Positions 8,749-28,099 of a DNA stretch of 64,000 nt are shown here, piece by piece. The stretch's first letter is position 1. Every line of letters begins with the position of its first letter. A program made the translations under genes and the position numbers. This DNA is from Arthrobacter sp. 260 (lineage in GTDB: Bacteria > Actinomycetota > Actinomycetes > Actinomycetales > Micrococcaceae), in contig NZ_JABFOE010000013.1 in the NCBI RefSeq assembly GCF_013116745.1, positions 1-64,000 on the forward strand. Reading direction: 5' to 3'. The notes under the pieces were generated by a model. It saw only the letters and a list, made by a program, of their open reading frames with translations. It was not told where the DNA came from and made no database searches.

Positions 8749-8825
8749 GCCTCCTTAGCTCAGTTGGCCAGAGCACCTGTCTTGTAAACAGGGGGTCGCC
8801 GGTTCGAATCCGGCAGGAGGCTCCA
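8749..8825 (+). tRNA. tRNA-Thr (anticodon TGT)
   Basis: A complete cloverleaf. The acceptor stem GCCTCCT pairs with AGGAGGC, the D arm is GCTC...GAGC, the anticodon stem CCTGT/ACAGG holds loop CTTGTAA (anticodon TGT), and the T arm is GCCGG TTCGAAT CCGGC. A T discriminator and an encoded CCA follow. Its 3' half, from the anticodon loop onward, is the left attachment site of the genomic island and is duplicated at 28053-28099. Confidence 0.95.
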
Positions 8826-8829
8826 CCAA
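8783..8829 (+). repeat. attL: 47-bp direct repeat in tRNA-Thr
   Basis: Identical over 47 bp to 28053-28099. It begins at TGTAAACAGG in the anticodon loop and ends four bases past the encoded CCA, so insertion kept the tRNA functional on the left. Confidence 0.93.
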
Positions 8830-8871: not shown

Positions 8872-9375
8872 ATGACCAGCAAACCGTTGAACCGACGTTT
8901 ATCGGACGTTTTAGCGGCATTGCCACCGGTGAGCTCTTTCCAGGCCGCCGCACACATGGTGCTCATGGAAGAACATAATGAGCAGTCTGAAGCAGTGCCC
9001 GTGAAGGTACTCACCCGCGCTGAAGTCGCCCGGATCCTCGGAATCGCTCCGAAAACCCTCGCTAATTGGTACTCGTCGGGCCTCGGTCCTCCGGTCGTCA
9101 AGCTACATGGCCTCGTCAGGTATGACGAGGCCGACTTCATCACCTGGTACCAGACGATGAAGGCGGTTGCCTGGTGGGCCGCGCGCGTTTACGGCCGGGC
9201 GAGATCGGAGTCCCAGGCGCCAAACAGATCAATAAGGACCGGTGGGACGCCTGTGCGCGTTTCGGAGCTTCGGACGGCCGGCCGGTCCGGATTGAGCGCA
9301 CCGGCCGCACCAAGGCGATCGCTATCCGGGCAGTCCAAGAGGCCGCTGCCGCACGGGTGGAGGGGTGGCGGTTAG
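8872..9375 (+). CDS. Xis-like helix-turn-helix protein
   Basis: The ORF has 167 codons. The convincing part is residues 44-95 (VLTRAEVARILGIAPKTLANW, then GLGPPVVKLHGLVRYDEADF), a winged-helix MerR/excisionase-type domain as found in AlpA/Xis proteins that direct integrase towards excision. Beyond about residue 98 the reading frame overlaps the integrase and becomes Arg/Ser-rich shadow sequence, so the natural stop was probably lost by a frameshift near 9155-9180. The strong AGGAGGGG before the ATG supports the start. The N-terminal coding region also contains the putative arm-site pair. Confidence 0.7.
   Translation: MTSKPLNRRLSDVLAALPPVSSFQAAAHMVLMEEHNEQSEAVPVKVLTRAEVARILGIAPKTLANWYSSGLGPPVVKLHGLVRYDEADFITWYQTMKAVAWWAARVYGRARSESQAPNRSIRTGGTPVRVSELRTAGRSGLSAPAAPRRSLSGQSKRPLPHGWRGGG
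8894..8912 (+). promoter_or_regulatory. Left candidate integrase arm-type site pair
   Basis: Two direct copies, GACGTTTA (8894-8901) and GACGTTTT (8905-8912), lie 11 bp apart about 65 bp inside attL. A matching pair of GACGTTTA, 12 bp apart, lies inside attR at 27913-27932. The mirrored placement at both ends is what integrase or Xis arm sites would show. Binding is inferred. Confidence 0.35.
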
Positions 9376-10332
9376 ACGGTGAAGCCGCCGCCGAGAACGC
9401 CGTGCCGACAGTTGGGCAGCTCGCCGAGGATTGGTTCAGGAGCATTGAACCTCCCAAGGTCGAGGTGAACCAGAGCGGTAATGCCGTCGAAGCGAGCTTC
9501 GATACATCTGTGCGGCGACAGACGTTCGATCAGTACCAGAGCACCTACCGGAACCATATAGAGGCTGAGCTCGGACAATTGAAAGTGTCCGATGTCGGAG
9601 TCAAAGTCGGCAGAAGTGTTGTCCTACAACCCAGTTCGAAATATCAAGCCGCTACCAAAGAGAAAAGTGAAACCAAAGGCGCTGAACGAACCTTCACTCG
9701 GCGAGGTGCGGTCGGCTGTGCGGTCATGGCGAAACCAGCCGGGCACTTTTGTGCCCCCGAATGACGGAACGCTTGCAGACATCGTCGACGTCATGTTGGC
9801 AACCGGCACACGGATTGGAGAAGTTCTAGCCTTACGCTGGAATGACGTTGATTTGGTGAGCTCAGTTCCCACGGTGTCCATTACCGGCACACTTATTGAA
9901 CCCCGTCATGGACCTAAGTATCGGCAGCCGGTACCGAAGTCCGAGGGAAGCATCCGGAAAATCCCTCTACCCCAGTTCGCTGTCAGTGTCCTGCTTCGGC
10001 GGCGAGCTTGTTCGCCGCCGAAGAACACCGTAGATGCCGTCTTCTGGTCCCAGAACGGAACTTTCATGCAACCGTCGTCTGTTCGACGATCTTTGCGTAG
10101 TGCATTGAACGCCGCAGGTGTTGAGTTCGATTTCAAGGTAACTCCGCACACGTTCAGAAAGACCGTAGCTACTTTGCTCGCGCGGGAAGCTGGCAAGGGT
10201 GCCGCACGTTCTGTAATCGGCCACTCCAAGGAAGAGACCACCGACCAGTACTACATCGAACCCGTCACCCAAGTGGAAGACCATAGGGAGCTAATCGAGG
10301 GCGCCTTCGGTCAACGGCCGGACAGGGACTGA
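9174..10332 (+). pseudogene. Tyrosine recombinase/integrase, disrupted
   Basis: The N-terminal part starts at GTG 9174 and runs to about 9600. It has the AP2-like arm-binding region (DRWDACARFGASDGRPVRIE) and the beginning of the SAM-like core-binding domain (TVGQLAEDWF, TFDQYQSTYRNHIEAELGQL). The catalytic domain continues in another frame (about 9592-10332), with the first Arg in TGTRIGEVLALRW, then HTFRKTVATLL and GHSKEETTDQYY carrying His-Arg, His and the nucleophilic Tyr. Some 40-60 residues of the core-binding domain are missing at the junction. A deletion plus frameshift has therefore inactivated an otherwise intact catalytic domain. Confidence 0.85.
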
Positions 10333-10676
10333 ACCGTTCTACAAAGGAATTCAGTCTCCCAAGGCTGGCTGAAAGTCGGGCAGGGACCCTCAGCGGCCGA
10401 GTTGGCAGCCAACGCTAGATACCGGCACTGACATCGTCGGTTCCGCACTCGCTTGACCGCCGTCTCCCTTGCCCAAGGTGACACTAGCTACCCCGCTGTC
10501 ATTCGCCCCCAAATGAACTCCCTAGGGGGGTAACCATGGGACGGAAGCAGCTTGTGGAAAGCTCGAAATTGGTGTCACACTCTTGCGAAGCTGATGCTCA
10601 GCAGGCGGGCGAGGCAGCAGACTTTTAGAACACCGGGCGAGTTGACCGAGGCTGCTTCTGCCTGCATGCTCAACTG
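10333..10676. other. Intergenic region without a convincing gene
   Basis: Between the integrase remnant and the NYN gene there is no credible long ORF. A 30-codon ORF at 10536-10628 follows a GGGGGG run, but nothing in it is recognisable. The region presumably holds the promoter of the NYN gene. Confidence 0.5.
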
Positions 10677-11417
10677 GTGAATCCCGAAGAGAAACGCATC
10701 GCCCTGTTCATCGATGCTAACAACGCACCAGCTTCCAAAATTGATCTGGTCCTTGCCGAAGTGGCCCGTCATGGGGTTGCCAATGTACGTCGAGCATATG
10801 GCGATTGGAAAAGCCCTCGTCTACAGCATTGGGAGTCCGCCCTCCACCCGTATGCGATACGACCGATGCAGCAGTTTGCATACAGCACTGGCAAGAATGC
10901 CGCTGATATGGCAATGGTGATCGACGCCATGGATTTGCTCAATGGAGGCTCGATCGATGCCTTCGCCCTCGTTTCCAGCGACGCGGACTTCACTCCGCTG
11001 GTCATGCGAATATTGGCGAACGGTCAAAAGGTGTACGGGTTCGGGGAGAGGAAGACTCCGGAGCCCTTTGTCAACGCTTGTTCCCTATTCACCTACGTTG
11101 AAGGATTGGGGCAGGCGCCCAATAGCTCTAACACTTCGGTGGAACAACGCGCTGACTCGAGGAAACTGCGTGGTAATACCCGTCTCGTGCTCCTGATACG
11201 TAACGCTGTCGAAGCTGCAAGCGATGATGACGGCTGGGCGAACTTATCTGCGGTGGGAAGCCAAATAGGCAACCAAGCGTCGCTGGACTCCCGCAATTAC
11301 GGCTATCAAAAGTTGAGCGAACTCATAGATGCCATCGGGCTGTTCGATCTAAAAAGAGATAACCAGATAGTCCATGTTCGGGACAAGCGCGCCATAGCAC
11401 GAGACGCCCCGGGGTAA
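10677..11417 (+). CDS. NYN domain nuclease with C-terminal OST-HTH/LOTUS domain
   Basis: 246 residues from GTG 10677. The N-terminal 150 residues are a LabA-like NYN (PIN-fold) domain: RIALFIDANNAP (acidic Asp13), KNAADMAMVIDAMDLL, and FALVSSDADFTPLVMRI with the second acidic cluster. The C-terminus (about 165-240; RLVLLIRNAV, GYQKLSELIDAIGLF) is an OST-HTH/LOTUS module that binds RNA in other proteins. The expected activity is metal-dependent RNA cleavage. Proteins of this type occur in bacterial defence and RNA-decay settings. It is the first cargo gene after the integrase and stands alone. Confidence 0.85.
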   Translation: MNPEEKRIALFIDANNAPASKIDLVLAEVARHGVANVRRAYGDWKSPRLQHWESALHPYAIRPMQQFAYSTGKNAADMAMVIDAMDLLNGGSIDAFALVSSDADFTPLVMRILANGQKVYGFGERKTPEPFVNACSLFTYVEGLGQAPNSSNTSVEQRADSRKLRGNTRLVLLIRNAVEAASDDDGWANLSAVGSQIGNQASLDSRNYGYQKLSELIDAIGLFDLKRDNQIVHVRDKRAIARDAPG

Positions 11418-11478
11418 GGGTCATCCCCGCCTGCGCGAAGTCACGCCAGTGGTGTAATCCGAGTACGACTAAGCTCAG

Positions 11479-11533
11479 CCGCTGAGCTGCCGCTGAGCTG
11501 CCGCTGAGCTGCCGCTGAGCTGCCGCTGAGCTG
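11479..11533. repeat. Five tandem 11-bp repeats
   Basis: Five exact copies of CCGCTGAGCTG run without interruption, followed by a partial CCGC. The unit itself holds the near-palindrome AGCT. Because 11 is not a multiple of 3, it is unlikely to be coding. It lies between the convergent 3' ends of the NYN and EEP genes. Confidence 0.85.
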
Positions 11534-11662
11534 CCGCGAAACGCGGGAAATGAGCGTGCACCGCGAGCTCAACGCCGAGTACCTCACCGGGGCACCAAGG
11601 TTCGAGACTGAGCTGGGAGCCCTCCCACACTAGGAACTGTTCAGGCAGGCAGATGAACCGGG

Positions 11663-12379
11663 TCAACCTGACGGGCCGCGGTGGAACGCCTGCGTCAGGA
11701 CAGTAGAAGACCTGTCGACGTCGAGGATAAGCGGCATGTGGTCGCTGTGGGCGAGCCAGGCCTCGTGCCTGCCGATCTCCAAATTCGCTGTCATATCAGC
11801 GCTGAGGAAGGCGTAATCGATGTGGTGCGGCTTCTCGGGGTTGCGGCTGCCGAAGAACGTCGGGTGCCGCTCGCTACCCTGCGCCACGTTTTCCTGGCGG
11901 TGGTAAACGCTGTGAAGACCCAGCTGCTCGAGCTTATCGACCAGCATTGAATGGTTCCGTCCCGGGTGCATCTTGTCCCAGAGCGTGCTGCTGTTGAAGT
12001 CACCGATGAGCAGGGACTGCGGGTGTCGCAGGAACTCGGCCTGCCGGTTGACGATCTCGTGGGTGACCCGCACATAGCGGAGGTCCCGGGTGCGGACGTG
12101 TGCCCATAGGGCGATGATGTTCATGCCGTCCACGCTGAACGGGATATGCCATGGCAGGAGCTGCCCAGCTTCGTACTCCAAGTAGGTGCGGTCGGTGAAG
12201 CCGAGAACGCCCAGGCCCTTGTTCGGGTTAGACCCCACCCACGTCTTGAACGGCGCGTCAGAGTCCGTGATGGCCCTCAGCGAAACTTCCGCCAGAGCGG
12301 CTATGTCGGGCCGCAATGCCTCGATCAGATGCCGTTTCTTGGTGTAGCCCATCGCACAGTTCCACGACACGATCCGCAT
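11663..12379 (-). CDS. Endonuclease/exonuclease/phosphatase (EEP) family protein
   Basis: 238 residues with the full EEP catalytic set: RIVSWNCAMG (Asn7), AALAEVS (metal Glu31), SLLIGDFNSS (Asp-Asn), PHHIDYAFLS, and the C-terminal SDHMPLILD catalytic His. This fold includes ExoIII/APE AP endonucleases and DNase I. Members hydrolyse phosphodiester bonds with Mg2+. It has no signal peptide, so it is cytoplasmic. It starts 2 nt after the stop of the glycosylase-like gene, which implies an operon and suggests, by inference, that it cuts DNA at sites made by that partner. Confidence 0.87.
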   Translation of the reverse strand: MRIVSWNCAMGYTKKRHLIEALRPDIAALAEVSLRAITDSDAPFKTWVGSNPNKGLGVLGFTDRTYLEYEAGQLLPWHIPFSVDGMNIIALWAHVRTRDLRYVRVTHEIVNRQAEFLRHPQSLLIGDFNSSTLWDKMHPGRNHSMLVDKLEQLGLHSVYHRQENVAQGSERHPTFFGSRNPEKPHHIDYAFLSADMTANLEIGRHEAWLAHSDHMPLILDVDRSSTVLTQAFHRGPSG

Positions 12380-12381
12380 CG

Positions 12382-13215
12382 TCAGGCTACAGCGGGGCCG
12401 AGGGCAGCGGCCTGAAGGCGGAGAAAGTGCTCCGGATACATGGCGGCGAGGCCCCTTACCTTTGGGTGGTGGGCGCTGTTGTGCCAGAGGTAGCAGACCG
12501 TTCGCATCCGGCCGCCGAGGTTCATCTCGAAAATACTCTGTGCCGGGTCAACTCGGCCGGTCGTCTTATCATCCCGTCCGAAGCGCGGGTAGCGGTTCGC
12601 TACCTCAGGGTAGGCACGCAGTAAGCGGTCGCGCGCCTGGCGGCCGACCACGATGATCAGGTTCGCCGGCGTCGCCGAGAGGACCCGGTCCATGTGCATG
12701 GAGCTGCAACGGTCGGCAGCCTCCTTGACGCCGTCCTCACTGCCGGACTTGCAGTGGACGATCTCGGTCATGGCCACGTTCTCGTACCAGGGCAGGTCGG
12801 TCCCGACCAGCGCTTCAGTCTGGGCCCTGACCCATTTCCAGTAGCCTTCTGGGCGACCCCGGGAAAAACCGTCGACTTTCAGATGCCGAAGCTCCTGGTT
12901 CACCCAGTCGTGCTCGCTGTCGAAGCGGTTCAGCATGAAGTCGGCGATGTCCGGATCTTCCCATTCCGCGTTCGGATACTTTTCCGCCAGATGCTTGCCC
13001 GCCATCCCAGCGCTAATAGCTGGATTCGACGACAGGAAGACCACCTTGGCGGTCTCCAGCTTGCCTGCCCACGCCTCGGGAACCTGGAACGGTCCCTCGT
13101 ACTGATCCTGGGAGTGCACCACCTTGTGGCACGGGTGTGTTGGGTCCGCAGCGGCCAGTGGTACTTCCGGGCAGCGGGCAATGCTCAGTGCGAGTTCCTC
13201 GAGATGTACTGGCAT
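12382..13215 (-). CDS. Uracil-DNA-glycosylase-superfamily-like protein
   Basis: 277 residues from ATG 13215, preceded by GGGGGGAA. The fold signature is a UDG-like alpha/beta core: KVVFLSSNPAISAG (position of the UDG first motif), then WYENVAMTEIVHCKSGSEDGVKEAADRC, a buried strand LIIVVGRQARDRLL, and CYLWHNSAHHPK in place of the usual HPSP loop. Such proteins excise damaged or modified bases. The first motif resembles the NP variant of MUG-type enzymes rather than classical Ung, so the target base is uncertain. It is the upstream gene of a tight two-gene unit with the EEP nuclease. Family assignment is tentative. Confidence 0.65.
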   Translation of the reverse strand: MPVHLEELALSIARCPEVPLAAADPTHPCHKVVHSQDQYEGPFQVPEAWAGKLETAKVVFLSSNPAISAGMAGKHLAEKYPNAEWEDPDIADFMLNRFDSEHDWVNQELRHLKVDGFSRGRPEGYWKWVRAQTEALVGTDLPWYENVAMTEIVHCKSGSEDGVKEAADRCSSMHMDRVLSATPANLIIVVGRQARDRLLRAYPEVANRYPRFGRDDKTTGRVDPAQSIFEMNLGGRMRTVCYLWHNSAHHPKVRGLAAMYPEHFLRLQAAALGPAVA

Positions 13216-13424
13216 GTGGTTTCCCCCCGAGTTCGAATGGCGATTGAGTGTGAGCCTGCTGCTTCGACGGCGCCTCAATGCGCACCTTGCACTGCATGTG
13301 AGGCGCGGGAGCGAGCATGCGATGGGCTCAACTGGCTTTTCACGAATGAAAGGAAGTTACTGAGACCCGCGCGCTGCGAAAGGCGCTTCGTCAGGTGGCC
13401 CCGCTGCCGGCGCTGCCGGCTTAC

Positions 13425-13733
13425 CTCGATCTCTGGATGGCGCGCCTCGACCCAGTCGGCCATCCGATTGCCGCGTCGCTCAATAAACTTCAGCGAGGCT
13501 TCCTGTCACGCCATGTACTCGTCTCGCGTTGCCGGCGTCCCGGGGCGCTGGAAATCCTCGAGGGGCAGGAAGAAGTCGATGCCGTCTGGAGTCATGAGGT
13601 CTTGTCGGTGAAAGAACTCCTCGAACTGCTTGAATGTACCGAAAAGTTGGAAGAGGTCTGCGTAGGCGATGGTGACATCTGCGAGGGGGTTCCATGTCTC
13701 CGTGCCGCTGCGCGCCAGGAGGTCGAGTGTCGA
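13425..13733 (-). pseudogene. C-terminal remnant of a DUF6994-like gene
   Basis: Reading the minus strand from 13733 gives a protein-like stretch of about 75 residues (NPLADVTIAYADLFQLF, FEEFFHRQDLM, DFFLPLEDFQRP) ending at an in-frame TGA (13506-13508). The same frame then resumes with QEASLKFIERRGNRMADW up to about 13425. From memory this resembles the C-terminus of the family called DUF6994. There is no start codon, the N-terminal part is absent, and the tail is cut, so it is a fragment left by deletion. It follows, in the same frame, directly after the stop of the neighbouring gene. Confidence 0.6.
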
Positions 13734-14255
13734 TCAGCCAGCGGGAAGAGCTTCGCTGTAGTGGAGAGTGGTCATCAGTCCGTGTGACTGGTCGATGACC
13801 TGGATCCATTCGAGACCACGTTCCTTCGCATTGACTAGCTTGAACAACGCGTGCGCGGCGTCATCGGCTAGACGATCCGCTTCCTCCTCCGTTCCTGATG
13901 TCTGAAGCAGGACGACGAGATCACCTTCCCCTGGTGATTCCATGTCCGAAAGAAAGCAGGGCCATCCGACCTGGGTGGCCCTGCAAGTCTGACTCCACGA
14001 GTCGATGCCGAAAGAGTCCAGAGCTGCCTGGTTGATCTCGGCTGCAAAGGCCTCCCGTTCAGGCGCATCCGGCCCGGTCGGGGGCTGTGTTGTGCTTTGC
14101 TCTGCGGGGCTGGACTCGCCTGCTGCCGAGTCGTCACGGCCACCGCCGAGCGAGCTAATGACCCCACTAAATACGAGGGCACCGGCGATCGCGAGCCAGA
14201 TTCTATTTCTCCTTTGTTCGGGAGTTATGGACTCGTCGGTGAAGGGATTCTGCAT
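13734..14255 (-). CDS. Unknown single-pass membrane protein
   Basis: 173 residues. A short charged N-terminus (EQRRNR) precedes one hydrophobic helix (about 19-36), then a Ser/Thr/Pro-rich extracellular linker (about 40-65) and a small domain with two cysteines (QTCRATQVGWPCFLSD) that could form a disulphide. The ending is acidic and lacks motifs I recognise. It may be an exported sensor or immunity-like protein. It shares strand with the lipoprotein gene upstream, 48 nt away. The C-terminal boundary may be altered by the deletion that left the DUF6994-like fragment behind it. Confidence 0.6.
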   Translation of the reverse strand: MQNPFTDESITPEQRRNRIWLAIAGALVFSGVISSLGGGRDDSAAGESSPAEQSTTQPPTGPDAPEREAFAAEINQAALDSFGIDSWSQTCRATQVGWPCFLSDMESPGEGDLVVLLQTSGTEEEADRLADDAAHALFKLVNAKERGLEWIQVIDQSHGLMTTLHYSEALPAG

Positions 14256-17104: not shown

Positions 17105-18337
17105 CTACGCCGCGGGTTGCGCGGCGGGTAAGAGAGCGGTTGACGCGGCCCGTTGCCGGGACCTCTGCGTCCGATCCCCCGGAGTCTCCGGGTTGGTGTT
17201 GATTACGCGGCCCAGAATGTTCTGGGCCGCATTGGTATCTGCGTGTGCCTCGTGCCCGCACTCGATGCAGATGAAGACCGCTTGACTCTCGCGGTTTCTT
17301 GCACTGGTGGCTTTGCAGGATTGGCATTGGCATTGGCGTGACGTGTTGCCTGGATTGACCCGGATGACGGTCATCTTGTCGGCTAGCCGGGTAGTGAACT
17401 TCCCCCAGCAGGAAGCCAGGATGGCCCGGTTCAGACCGGCCTTCGCCCTCGCATTATTGGGAAGGAAACTGCCAGGAATGTCGGGGTCTGGCCGGGGTGC
17501 CGGGCGCCGGACCATATTCGTGATCTTCAGGTCCTCGACCGCGGCTAGGTCATACATTCTGGCCAGAGCCGCGGTGGTTTGCTCGATCCAATTGGTCCGC
17601 CGATCGTTGAGAGTGCGGCGGAGGCCGGCCAGTTGCGCAATGGTTTTGACCCGCCGTTTCGACCCCTTCTCCTGGCGTGCCAGCCTGCGCTGCAGAGCCA
17701 GGAAGCGGCGTTGTTCTCCCGGAGTCCAGGAGGGGGCCTGGATGAAGGTCCCATCGCTGGTGGCCACTGTGTTCTTCACACCGACATCGATCCCCACCTC
17801 TGCCCCGGTGCAGGCAGGAATCCTGGGCCTTGGTGGTGTGGTGATGGAAACGTGCCACCGCCCGTTATGGTGGACCGCCCTGGCGCTAGTGCCCTGCTCG
17901 GCGTCCTGGTATCGGTAGGTGAGTCGAAACTTCACCCAGCCGACCTTCGGTATCTGGATTAGAGCCTACTTGCGGTTGATCCGGCGTAGGAACAAGTCCC
18001 GGATGGCGAAACCCGATTTTAGATCCCGCGCCGACCGGAACCGCGGGTATCTTGTGTGACCGGCAAAAAACTTCTTGAACGCCTGGTCGAGATCCCGCAA
18101 GGCGTTCTGCTGGATGACGGCGGACCCATCCCGCAGCCAATCCAATTCCTGGCGAAGCTCGGTGAGCTCTCTGCACTGGGTATACAGGTTAATCTTCTGC
18201 TCGAAGTGACGCTTATCCTTCGTCCACATTGAACGCTGTTCCAGACCGAGGTTGTAGACGAACCGAGCGTGCTCAGCGTGCGTCACCATGAGGGCTTGCT
18301 GCTCCTGGGTGGGATACAACCGCTGCTTCAGGCTCAT
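17105..18337 (-). pseudogene. tnpB: TnpB (IS200/IS605-type OrfB) interrupted by one amber codon
   Basis: Two reading segments, 18337-17966 and 17965-17105, share one frame and are separated only by TAG, where the family has Trp (RRINRK-stop-ALIQIPKVGWVKF). All catalytic elements remain: the N-terminal helix-turn-helix LKQRLYPTQEQ, RuvC-like residues in VGIDVGVKNTV, LAAVEDLKITNM and HADTNAAQNILGR, and a zinc ribbon CQCQSC...CIECG. TnpB is an RNA-guided DNA nuclease whose guide overlaps the gene's 3' end. No tnpA is present, so it is a lone tnpB. A readthrough product of about 410 residues would be full length. Confidence 0.85.
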
Positions 18338-18518
18338 AGCACCCAATGTGTATCACGGAGCAACCATTACTGGCGAAAAGACACGACGCGATTCTTTGGC
18401 CAAAGGGCTCGAACCACATAACAAAAGATCGGCAGGATCATCCGGAGCTGAACAAGAAGGCCGCAAATGCGGTATGAGAGAGGTCTTTCGGACGAACAGA
18501 ACCTGGGCGCTATGCCGA

Positions 18519-23880: not shown

Positions 23881-24421
23881 ACTTAACCGACTCGGTTTCA
23901 GGTCGCTGTGCTGGGAGGTCGACGGGTAGCTTCGGCTTACGGGACCGTCGTTTTCCGTCGGTTGTTACCCCAAAGCTGAAGCCCTGCTATCTCGAAGGCC
24001 GCAGCCAAAATGCCTCACTGCCTTTCGCAGAGCACAGCCGTTCCGGCTAGTGCATGGCCCGGGACGCGCTCGTAGATGAACTGCAAATTGGAAGACTGTG
24101 GTTCTTCCCGGTCCTGGCTGGCCGTCTTCTCGGTGGGTTCGAGCAGCAACCGGTTTGACCGCTGTGCCCAAATTTTGTTGTGGGACAGTAAAGTTTTGCC
24201 GTCGTGGAGCTAACTCCAGTTGTGTGGCATAGATGAAACATTTCTGCTGATCTGAAGGGTGGTCCAGTGGGCAAGCTTTGTTTGTGTCCGGGAGTTGGAT
24301 GACATTTGAACCATCAGCCAGTCTGGAAGACTGAACCAGGGGTAACGGAATAGGCGGTCACGTGCGCGAGACCTCGGAAGCAGAGCACCCAGAAGCGACA
24401 ACGAGCCAAAGGAATAATGGC
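23881..24421. other. Region without a gene; holds the left inverted repeat
   Basis: No reading frame here looks protein-like on either strand. It contains the left inverted repeat (24146-24195) and, at its end, AAAGGA (24408-24413) as ribosome site for the HNH gene. Confidence 0.5.
24146..24195 (+). repeat. Left ~50-bp inverted repeat bracketing the HNH module
   Basis: It shares with the reverse complement of 27634-27686 a perfect 15-bp block, TTGTTGTGGGACAGT (24175-24189), and, in the same order, GCAAC, GGTTTGA, CGC, GTGCC and AAGTT blocks, with small length differences between them. The two copies therefore form inverted ends 3.5 kb apart. Confidence 0.7.
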
Positions 24422-25330
24422 GTGACCAATTACTGGTGGGCGAATCAGTCCGACAATTTTGAGCGGGTGGAGGGAACCTTGTGGACGAATTTCGTCGACG
24501 CAAAAGGGGCCCGGCGACCTGGCTCCGTTGCGCTCGGAAACACAAACCTGGGCGACGTAGTATTCCACTGCAATAAGCAGTTCGTCAGAACGATCAGCAT
24601 CATCGTCAGTGAACCCGTCGGCACGTATCGGCCACCTGCTTACCAGGGTAGGCAAAGCGGGACCGAAAAGGATGAAGGATGGCTTGTACTGGTTAAACCG
24701 CTCGTTACCGACTTGCGAATAGATCGACGCAAAGATCTGTCGTTCCTCGAATTGGGTGGTACAGGTCCATTCACCAAGCTTGGCGGGTTGAAGCGAGGCG
24801 TGTATCTGTCTCCGCTGTCACAAAGCAGCGCTGAGAAGCTTCTGGCTTCATCCGGCGTCGAGGTCGCCAAGATTCCCAGGACAGACCTTAACGAGTACGC
24901 AGAGCCGTTTTCAGGTGCAGATCTGACTGAGACAGACAAACTCTTACTGACGAAGCAGAGAGTGGAGCAGCACTACCTACGATCGGCCTTGCTTGAAAGG
25001 TCGGAGCGGCGTTGTTCGATGTGCCACCGCGAAATGCCAGAGAGTTTGTTGGTCGCTGGGCATATCAAGCCACGCTCGGCTTGCAGCGAGGAAGAACGCA
25101 AAGATTTTGTGTCTGCAGCGATGCTGATCTGTTCGCTGGGCTGCGACAGTCTGTATGAACGTGGAATGATCGCTGTCGAAGCGAGCGGCAACGTTGTCCG
25201 CTCGTCCCAGTCCGTAACACCCGACGTCGATCGCTTGCTGGACACGCTCGCGGGCAACCGGTGCCGCCACCACACCCACTCGACTGCTCCATTCTTCCAG
25301 TGGCATTTAGAGAACACTTTCATCGGGTGA
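24422..25330 (+). CDS. HNH endonuclease with N-terminal EVE/PUA-like domain
   Basis: 302 residues from GTG 24422, chosen because AAAGGA lies 8 nt upstream and NYWWANQSDNF is the usual start of this domain. A reading from 24362 also exists. The N-terminal ~120 residues (NYWWANQ, LGDVVFHC, then strands) resemble the EVE/PUA-like fold that recognises modified bases in restriction enzymes. The C-terminal HNH domain has CSMCHREMPESLLVAGHIKP and DSLYERGMIAV. The second Cys pair and the HNH core Asn differ from the textbook motif (LICSLGCDSLY), so activity is not certain. A type IV-like restriction role is inferred. Confidence 0.75.
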   Translation: MTNYWWANQSDNFERVEGTLWTNFVDAKGARRPGSVALGNTNLGDVVFHCNKQFVRTISIIVSEPVGTYRPPAYQGRQSGTEKDEGWLVLVKPLVTDLRIDRRKDLSFLELGGTGPFTKLGGLKRGVYLSPLSQSSAEKLLASSGVEVAKIPRTDLNEYAEPFSGADLTETDKLLLTKQRVEQHYLRSALLERSERRCSMCHREMPESLLVAGHIKPRSACSEEERKDFVSAAMLICSLGCDSLYERGMIAVEASGNVVRSSQSVTPDVDRLLDTLAGNRCRHHTHSTAPFFQWHLENTFIG

Positions 25331-28052: not shown

Positions 28053-28099
28053 TGTAAACAGGGGGTCGCCGGTTCGAATCCGGCAGGAGGCTCCACCAA
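28053..28099 (+). repeat. attR: duplicated 3' half of tRNA-Thr
   Basis: A 47-bp exact copy of 8783-8829, from the anticodon loop to just past CCA. It lacks the 5' half of the tRNA, so it is not a functional tRNA gene. It marks the right end of the island. The following GCCGCT...AGCGCGGC may be the original tRNA terminator. Confidence 0.93.

Follow-up and report, generated by a model that had tools for sequence, protein, structure and literature searches.

The first 64,000 bp of contig NZ_JABFOE010000013.1 of Arthrobacter sp. 260 (positions 1 to 64,000 of the forward strand; this whole stretch of DNA is hereafter called the window) encode on the minus strand a pair of genes that we consider here as a candidate base-excision defence operon. 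The first gene of the pair (13215-12382) encodes P0001, a predicted glycosylase of 277 aa from the uracil-DNA glycosylase (UDG) superfamily, and the second (12379-11663) encodes P0002, a 238-aa, ExoIII/APE1-like nuclease of the endonuclease/exonuclease/phosphatase (EEP) fold. An earlier reading of the DNA letters alone (the original prediction) had placed two such genes 2 nt apart, and this spacing is borne out, as the stop codon of P0001 and the start codon of P0002 are separated by a 2-nt intergenic gap at 12380..12381 of the minus strand (TGA-CG-ATG). Given that this gap leaves no space for a separate promoter, the two genes form an operon, and they are probably translationally coupled. The sequence 5' of the P0001 ATG is GGGGGGAAACCAC, and the start codon is preceded by the Shine-Dalgarno-like GGGGGGAAA.

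The original prediction had described P0001 as a UDG-superfamily-like protein with non-canonical motifs and had named structure prediction among the ways to check it. An AlphaFold2 model of P0001 built with 8 relatives (mf7a82afcf732; pLDDT 84.3, pTM 0.87), which was used instead of an earlier model from 4 sequences (pLDDT 58), displays the alpha/beta fold of the UDG superfamily (PF03167), and the absence of a UDG fold, which would have refuted the original prediction, was thus not observed. The top PDB matches of this model are the family-4 UDGs of Thermus, Sulfolobus and Thermotoga with Z scores of 12.5-13.5 over 174-192 residues (best match Z 13.5 over 192 residues; Foldseek E 8e-5), followed by UdgX and TDG, and a family-4 UDG is the top structural match of both models. 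At the sequence level, P0001 gives a weak match to the Pfam UDG family PF03167 (16.7 bits, E 0.0078, gathering cut-off 24.3) and scores 14 bits against the family-4 model TIGR00758, below its cut-off of 125.3. However, its relative P0008, which shares 31% identity with P0001 over 203 residues (E about 1e-22), reaches 28.3 bits against the same Pfam family and is above the cut-off, and thus P0001 is firmly tied to the UDG superfamily.

The two motifs on which the original prediction drew, SSNPAISAG and HNSAHHPK, are present at residues 62-70 and 245-252 of P0001, and its active-site elements can be listed as motif I (S62-S-N64-P-A66), Y125-W126, motif 3 (MTE151IVHC) and motif II (H245-N-S-A). 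The residues that are invariant in the 8-sequence alignment include Cys15, Ser62-Ser-Asn64-Pro65, Trp126, Thr150-Glu151, Cys155-Lys and Cys170, and Trp126 and Glu151 are unchanged in 8 relatives with identities down to 30%. P0001 resembles the family-4 UDGs (S. tokodaii, PDB identifier 4ZBY; T. thermophilus, PDB identifiers 1UI0 and 2D3Y) in its fold over the full length and in having the T-x-V-x-C motif 3 followed by Cys-x14-Cys, but differs from them in having Glu for the motif-3 Asn, SSNPA for the family-4 motif I and HNSA for the HPA of motif II. In an alignment of the profile of 8 relatives with T. thermophilus UDG (1ui0), Cys155 and Cys170 fall on two of its Cys residues and Glu151 on its motif-3 Asn. 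Cys15, Cys29, Cys155 and Cys170 form a candidate 4Fe-4S set, conserved apart from a one-residue offset of Cys29 in P0008, and P0001, with these four cysteines as putative cluster ligands, is probably an Fe-S protein. The N-terminal Cys pair is spaced by 2 in family-4 UDGs, whereas it is 13 apart in P0001. Base excision is a strongly supported prediction for P0001.

The Brig enzymes are known to protect bacteria by removing altered bases from viral DNA (PMC11078745; PMC13160076). Like P0001, Brig1, Brig2 and Brig3 are members of the UDG superfamily with a family-4 UDG as the nearest structure (4ZBY from S. tokodaii is the best structural match of Brig1; PMC11078745), and they share with it a Tyr-Trp pair, an acidic residue located 25-26 residues later and an Asn-Pro in motif I. 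In Brig1, the Y121A and E147A substitutions affect immunity, with E147 occupying the position of the Asn of other UDGs (PMC11078745), and W122 lines the pocket (PMC13160076). The Y125-W126-(25)-E151 arrangement of P0001 has the spacing of Brig1 Y121-W122-(25)-E147 and the same Asn-to-Glu change. Brig3 depends on N50, E55, W100 and D127 and carries the motif N50-P51-S52-R53-x-E55, where Ser52 and Glu55 read the hydroxymethyl group of 5-hydroxymethylcytosine (5hmC), and the invariant N64-P65 of P0001 corresponds to its N50-P51. The Brig-type residue set (Tyr-Trp, motif-3 Glu/Asp and Asn-Pro motif I) is found in P0001 by sequence comparison with the published residues. Unlike Brig3, P0001 has the motif N64-P65-A66-I-S-A69, which places Ala66 and Ala69 at the positions of Ser52 and Glu55; without the Glu at +5, which is found in its relatives P0012, P0013 and P0014, 5hmC is an improbable substrate of P0001.

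Profile searches place P0001 at some distance from Brig1. Its relative P0013 matches the NCBIfam Brig1 model (NF047634) with 18.8 bits (E 9e-4) over positions 46-193 of 254, whereas P0001 does not match this model, no relative comes near the cut-off of 230 bits, and Brig entries are not among the PDB matches of P0001. The shared residues and profile match, taken with the missed Brig1 cut-off, suggest that P0001 belongs to a Brig-like, distant sister clade and is not a Brig1. The clade is rare, being found in 2 of 396 and 2 of 326 genomes in the phylum samples and in 4 of 395 genomes of the class (own genome included), and from its sequences it appears to be a sister clade of the Brig anti-phage glycosylases rather than an isolated oddity. 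Defence genes occur near relatives of P0001, and Brig1 has numerous homologues in Actinobacteria. The partner genes differ, however, as P0001 is accompanied by an ExoIII-like EEP nuclease, whereas Brig3 is accompanied by BapA, an ASCH-like glucosyl hydrolase that broadens its substrate range, and an EEP partner is not described in the two Brig papers (PMC11078745; PMC13160076). Dag1 and Dag2 are mentioned alongside known base-excision defence (PMC13216743).

P0002 scores 30 bits (E 5.6e-7) against PF03372, above the cut-off of 24.5, and it contains N7, E31, D127, N129, D188, D213 and H214, in agreement with the complete catalytic set claimed for it in the original prediction. A profile of 6 relatives matches ExoIII (PDB identifier 2jc4) with an E-value of 3.5e-8, and nearly all of its 46 PDB matches up to an E-value of 10 are ExoIII or APE1. 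With ExoIII/APE1 (2JC4, 6FK4), its best sequence matches, P0002 shares the EEP fold and all metal-binding and catalytic residues, but it is short, scores 13.1 bits against the xth model TIGR00633 (cut-off 99) and has EVS around E31 and LWAH around W92 in place of the ExTK and YxPNG of the host ExoIII. Cutting at apurinic/apyrimidinic (AP) sites is our best guess for its activity, which these matches support with moderate confidence.

We looked for the pair in 38 genomes (species) of the genus, own genome included. Full-length copies of both genes are present in 3/38, namely the window genome, Arthrobacter sp. Soil782 (G012) and G031, the pairs of the two other species having 77-81% / 70-75% identity. 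The two genes are separated by 3 nt in G012 and by about 0.6 kb with small open reading frames (ORFs) in G031. Another four genomes retain fragments: decayed remnants of both genes lie adjacent in G017, only the glycosylase is left in G015 and G028, and only the EEP in G036. A convergent DUF6308 gene adjoins the pair in G012 and G031, while a NYN nuclease gene takes this place in the window, and this difference in neighbour indicates that the glycosylase and EEP genes have moved together. Among the three intact pairs, the ratio of nonsynonymous to synonymous substitution rates (dN/dS) is 0.12-0.16 in the glycosylase gene and 0.12-0.23 in the EEP gene. The intact pairs are thus under purifying selection in at least two genomic contexts, and their low dN/dS together with the recurrence in two other species argue that the pairing is more than chance. 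A module that is patchy, mobile and often broken, yet selected where intact, fits the pattern of a defence module.

In the window, the pair is carried by an integrative element of 19,270 bp bounded by a 47-bp tRNA-Thr duplication. The left attachment site (8783..8829, plus strand) is the 3' end of tRNA-Thr(tgt) (8749-8825), and an exact 47-bp copy of this 3' end marks the right site and the end of the element (28053..28099, plus strand). The element has a lower G+C content than its flanks and contains an integrase, a NYN-LOTUS nuclease, a split IS605 TnpB, an HNH protein and many genes of no assigned function. The C-terminal half of the tyrosine recombinase lies at 9592..10332 on the plus strand (PF00589, E 1.8e-18), with an HTH_17 ORF (PF12728) and a further ORF near it at 8872-9764. 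Convergent with the EEP gene is the gene for the NYN-domain nuclease (10677-11417, plus strand), which has a LOTUS/OST-HTH domain, is MARF1/LabA-like and matches PHROG 37744 (function unassigned) with an E-value of 8e-56; between the ends of these two genes is a perfect 11-bp tandem repeat of GCCGCTGAGCT in 5.5 copies (11478-11537). The IS605-type TnpB (17105-18346, minus strand) is divided between two ORFs (17105-17935 and 17966-18346) and is apparently disrupted, and the HNH protein (24362-25330, plus strand) matches type II restriction-like HNH models of PADLOC (E 1.4e-11). Neither P0001 nor P0002 matched in the PADLOC search, the 2023 release used being older than the Brig1 paper. Outside the element, the host has its own ung, a family-1 enzyme at 48061-47279 on the minus strand, and two xth genes. 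The original prediction had taken this separate ung as a sign that P0001 is not a housekeeping enzyme, a point that holds, and housekeeping repair as the main role of the pair is rejected given that the host already has these three genes.

Relatives outside the genus are diverse in their surroundings. In one genome, P0008 is encoded close to DISARM drmA/drmB (L024, 9399-18461), where a 569-aa protein without Pfam match is also found. In G584, a 733-aa TY-Chap3 protein has the glycosylase as its C-terminal domain, and its gene is divergent from a gene pair for TY-Chap2 and an EEP and lies near a type IIG restriction-modification (RM) gene. This EEP (L031, 13111-13890) does not match the P0002-family profile and belongs to a different EEP subfamily, and hence it lends weak support to a recurring pairing; the region (9727-13890) may be a glycosylase/EEP system in its own right, with TY-Chap chaperones at its core. 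A glycosylase relative is followed by DUF2971 in a viral contig (L035), and another stands alone in G863. EEP relatives without the glycosylase are found on Paenarthrobacter, Klebsiella and Cytobacillus plasmids, and in two viral contigs they lie directly 5' of type I RM genes. In one of these contigs (L053, 4510-9187), the EEP relative is immediately upstream of the restriction R and M genes, and a second ExoIII-like ORF occurs just ahead of it. No relatives of P0001 or P0002 were found in phage records, and a phage origin of the pair is rejected on this ground; the relatives in viral contigs are a single distant glycosylase in L035 and two EEP proteins in L052 and L053.

We hypothesize, with a probability of roughly one half, that P0001-P0002 is a horizontally carried, two-gene base-excision defence operon. 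P0001, as a Brig-like, family-4-related and probably Fe-S enzyme, would flip out and excise a non-canonical base, most likely a modified base of phage, and would leave abasic sites in the invading DNA. P0002, produced from the same transcript, would then cut or resect the DNA at these sites and turn base loss into strand breakage. The fold, the motif set, the operon structure, the conservation of the pair and its mobility are established here; gene context and the likeness to Brig enzymes support a putative role in defence, and we have moderate confidence that phage DNA is the target of P0001. The proposed AP-cutting step has a parallel in the PabI-family restriction glycosylases, which likewise use base excision as restriction and whose restriction is promoted by AP endonucleases (PMC10273834), though these have the HALFPIPE fold rather than that of UDG, are sequence-specific and are paired with a methyltransferase. 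Brig1 immunity in E. coli, on the other hand, is the same with XthA and Nfo deleted or overproduced (PMC11078745), and with Brig1 indifferent to AP endonucleases and PabI helped by them, a built-in nuclease would be a real difference from the Brig systems. The fuller proposal of a self-contained base-excision restriction operon, in which a new Brig-related clade with its own substrate base is coupled genetically and functionally to a dedicated AP-cutting nuclease and breaks phage genomes without host repair enzymes, is more tentative, and we would put it somewhat short of even.

Several observations weigh against such an operon. The independence of Brig1 from AP endonucleases means that a partner nuclease is unnecessary in principle, and the EVS and LWAH motifs set P0002 apart from the host ExoIII. 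The glycosylase clade outside the genus mostly lacks this EEP (L024, L035, L036), and the EEP occurs without the glycosylase at L017, L018 and L019. The partnership is therefore not obligatory, although the pair is conserved together in other species of the genus, so that the second refuting condition of the original prediction does not apply. The motif II His is changed in some relatives (APAS in L036, ARPG in L037), so the chemistry may vary, and other confirmed defence systems were not found among the genes of the element within the window. The same Brig1 result and the same two motifs, unlike those of housekeeping ExoIII, would also suit an unlikely alternative in which P0001 is a Brig-like anti-phage effector but P0002, by analogy with brig3-bapA, does not cut AP sites and instead removes a phosphate-linked or bulky modification, degrades phage nucleic acid generally or protects the host; EEP relatives that stand alone on plasmids or ahead of type I RM genes would be in keeping with this. 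However, the PDB matches of the P0002 profile are almost all ExoIII/APE1-type AP endonucleases, and P0002 lacks none of the catalytic residues. A glycosylase would also be most obviously partnered by an enzyme that acts on AP sites, and the PabI precedent shows AP endonucleases promoting restriction.

A UDG followed by an ExoIII is also the textbook order of repair, and the pair could be an accessory base-excision repair cassette, where P0001 removes uracil or a damaged base from the DNA of the host or the element and the EEP starts repair; low uracil activity remains as a relic even in Brig enzymes. We regard this as distinctly improbable in view of the host ung and two xth genes, the patchy occurrence of the pair, its location on a mobile element with relatives near DISARM and RM genes, and the residues of P0001 in motifs I and 3, which are of Brig type and not of family-4 type (Glu for Asn in motif 3). 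Finally, the integrative element, the EEP relatives on large plasmids and the fragmentary state of several copies elsewhere could reflect a weapon of one element against another or a self-maintenance device, which would attack competing plasmids or phages through some marker besides base modification, or else a pair that is decaying while mobile DNA carries it along as a passenger. A passenger is difficult to reconcile with the low dN/dS of all three intact pairs, and an active site of UDG type suggests that a base is what is recognised, making this the case for which we see very little likelihood.

We found no description of a defence pair of a glycosylase and an EEP/ExoIII nuclease in the open-access literature, subscription papers being mostly outside this coverage. 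Base-excision defence as such is already known from Brig1-3, and what is new here is the dedicated ExoIII-like partner. It was not until 2024-2026 that immunity of this kind was recognised, with the Brig enzymes, and for the fate of the abasic sites that these produce, blocked replication, spontaneous breakage and crosslinks have been put forward as options by their authors. With a natural operon that encodes a candidate AP nuclease of its own, the fate of abasic sites would become testable. The Brig enzymes would also gain a sister clade whose predicted pocket differs, and a glycosylase acting on a modified base from phages of soil actinobacteria could be obtained.
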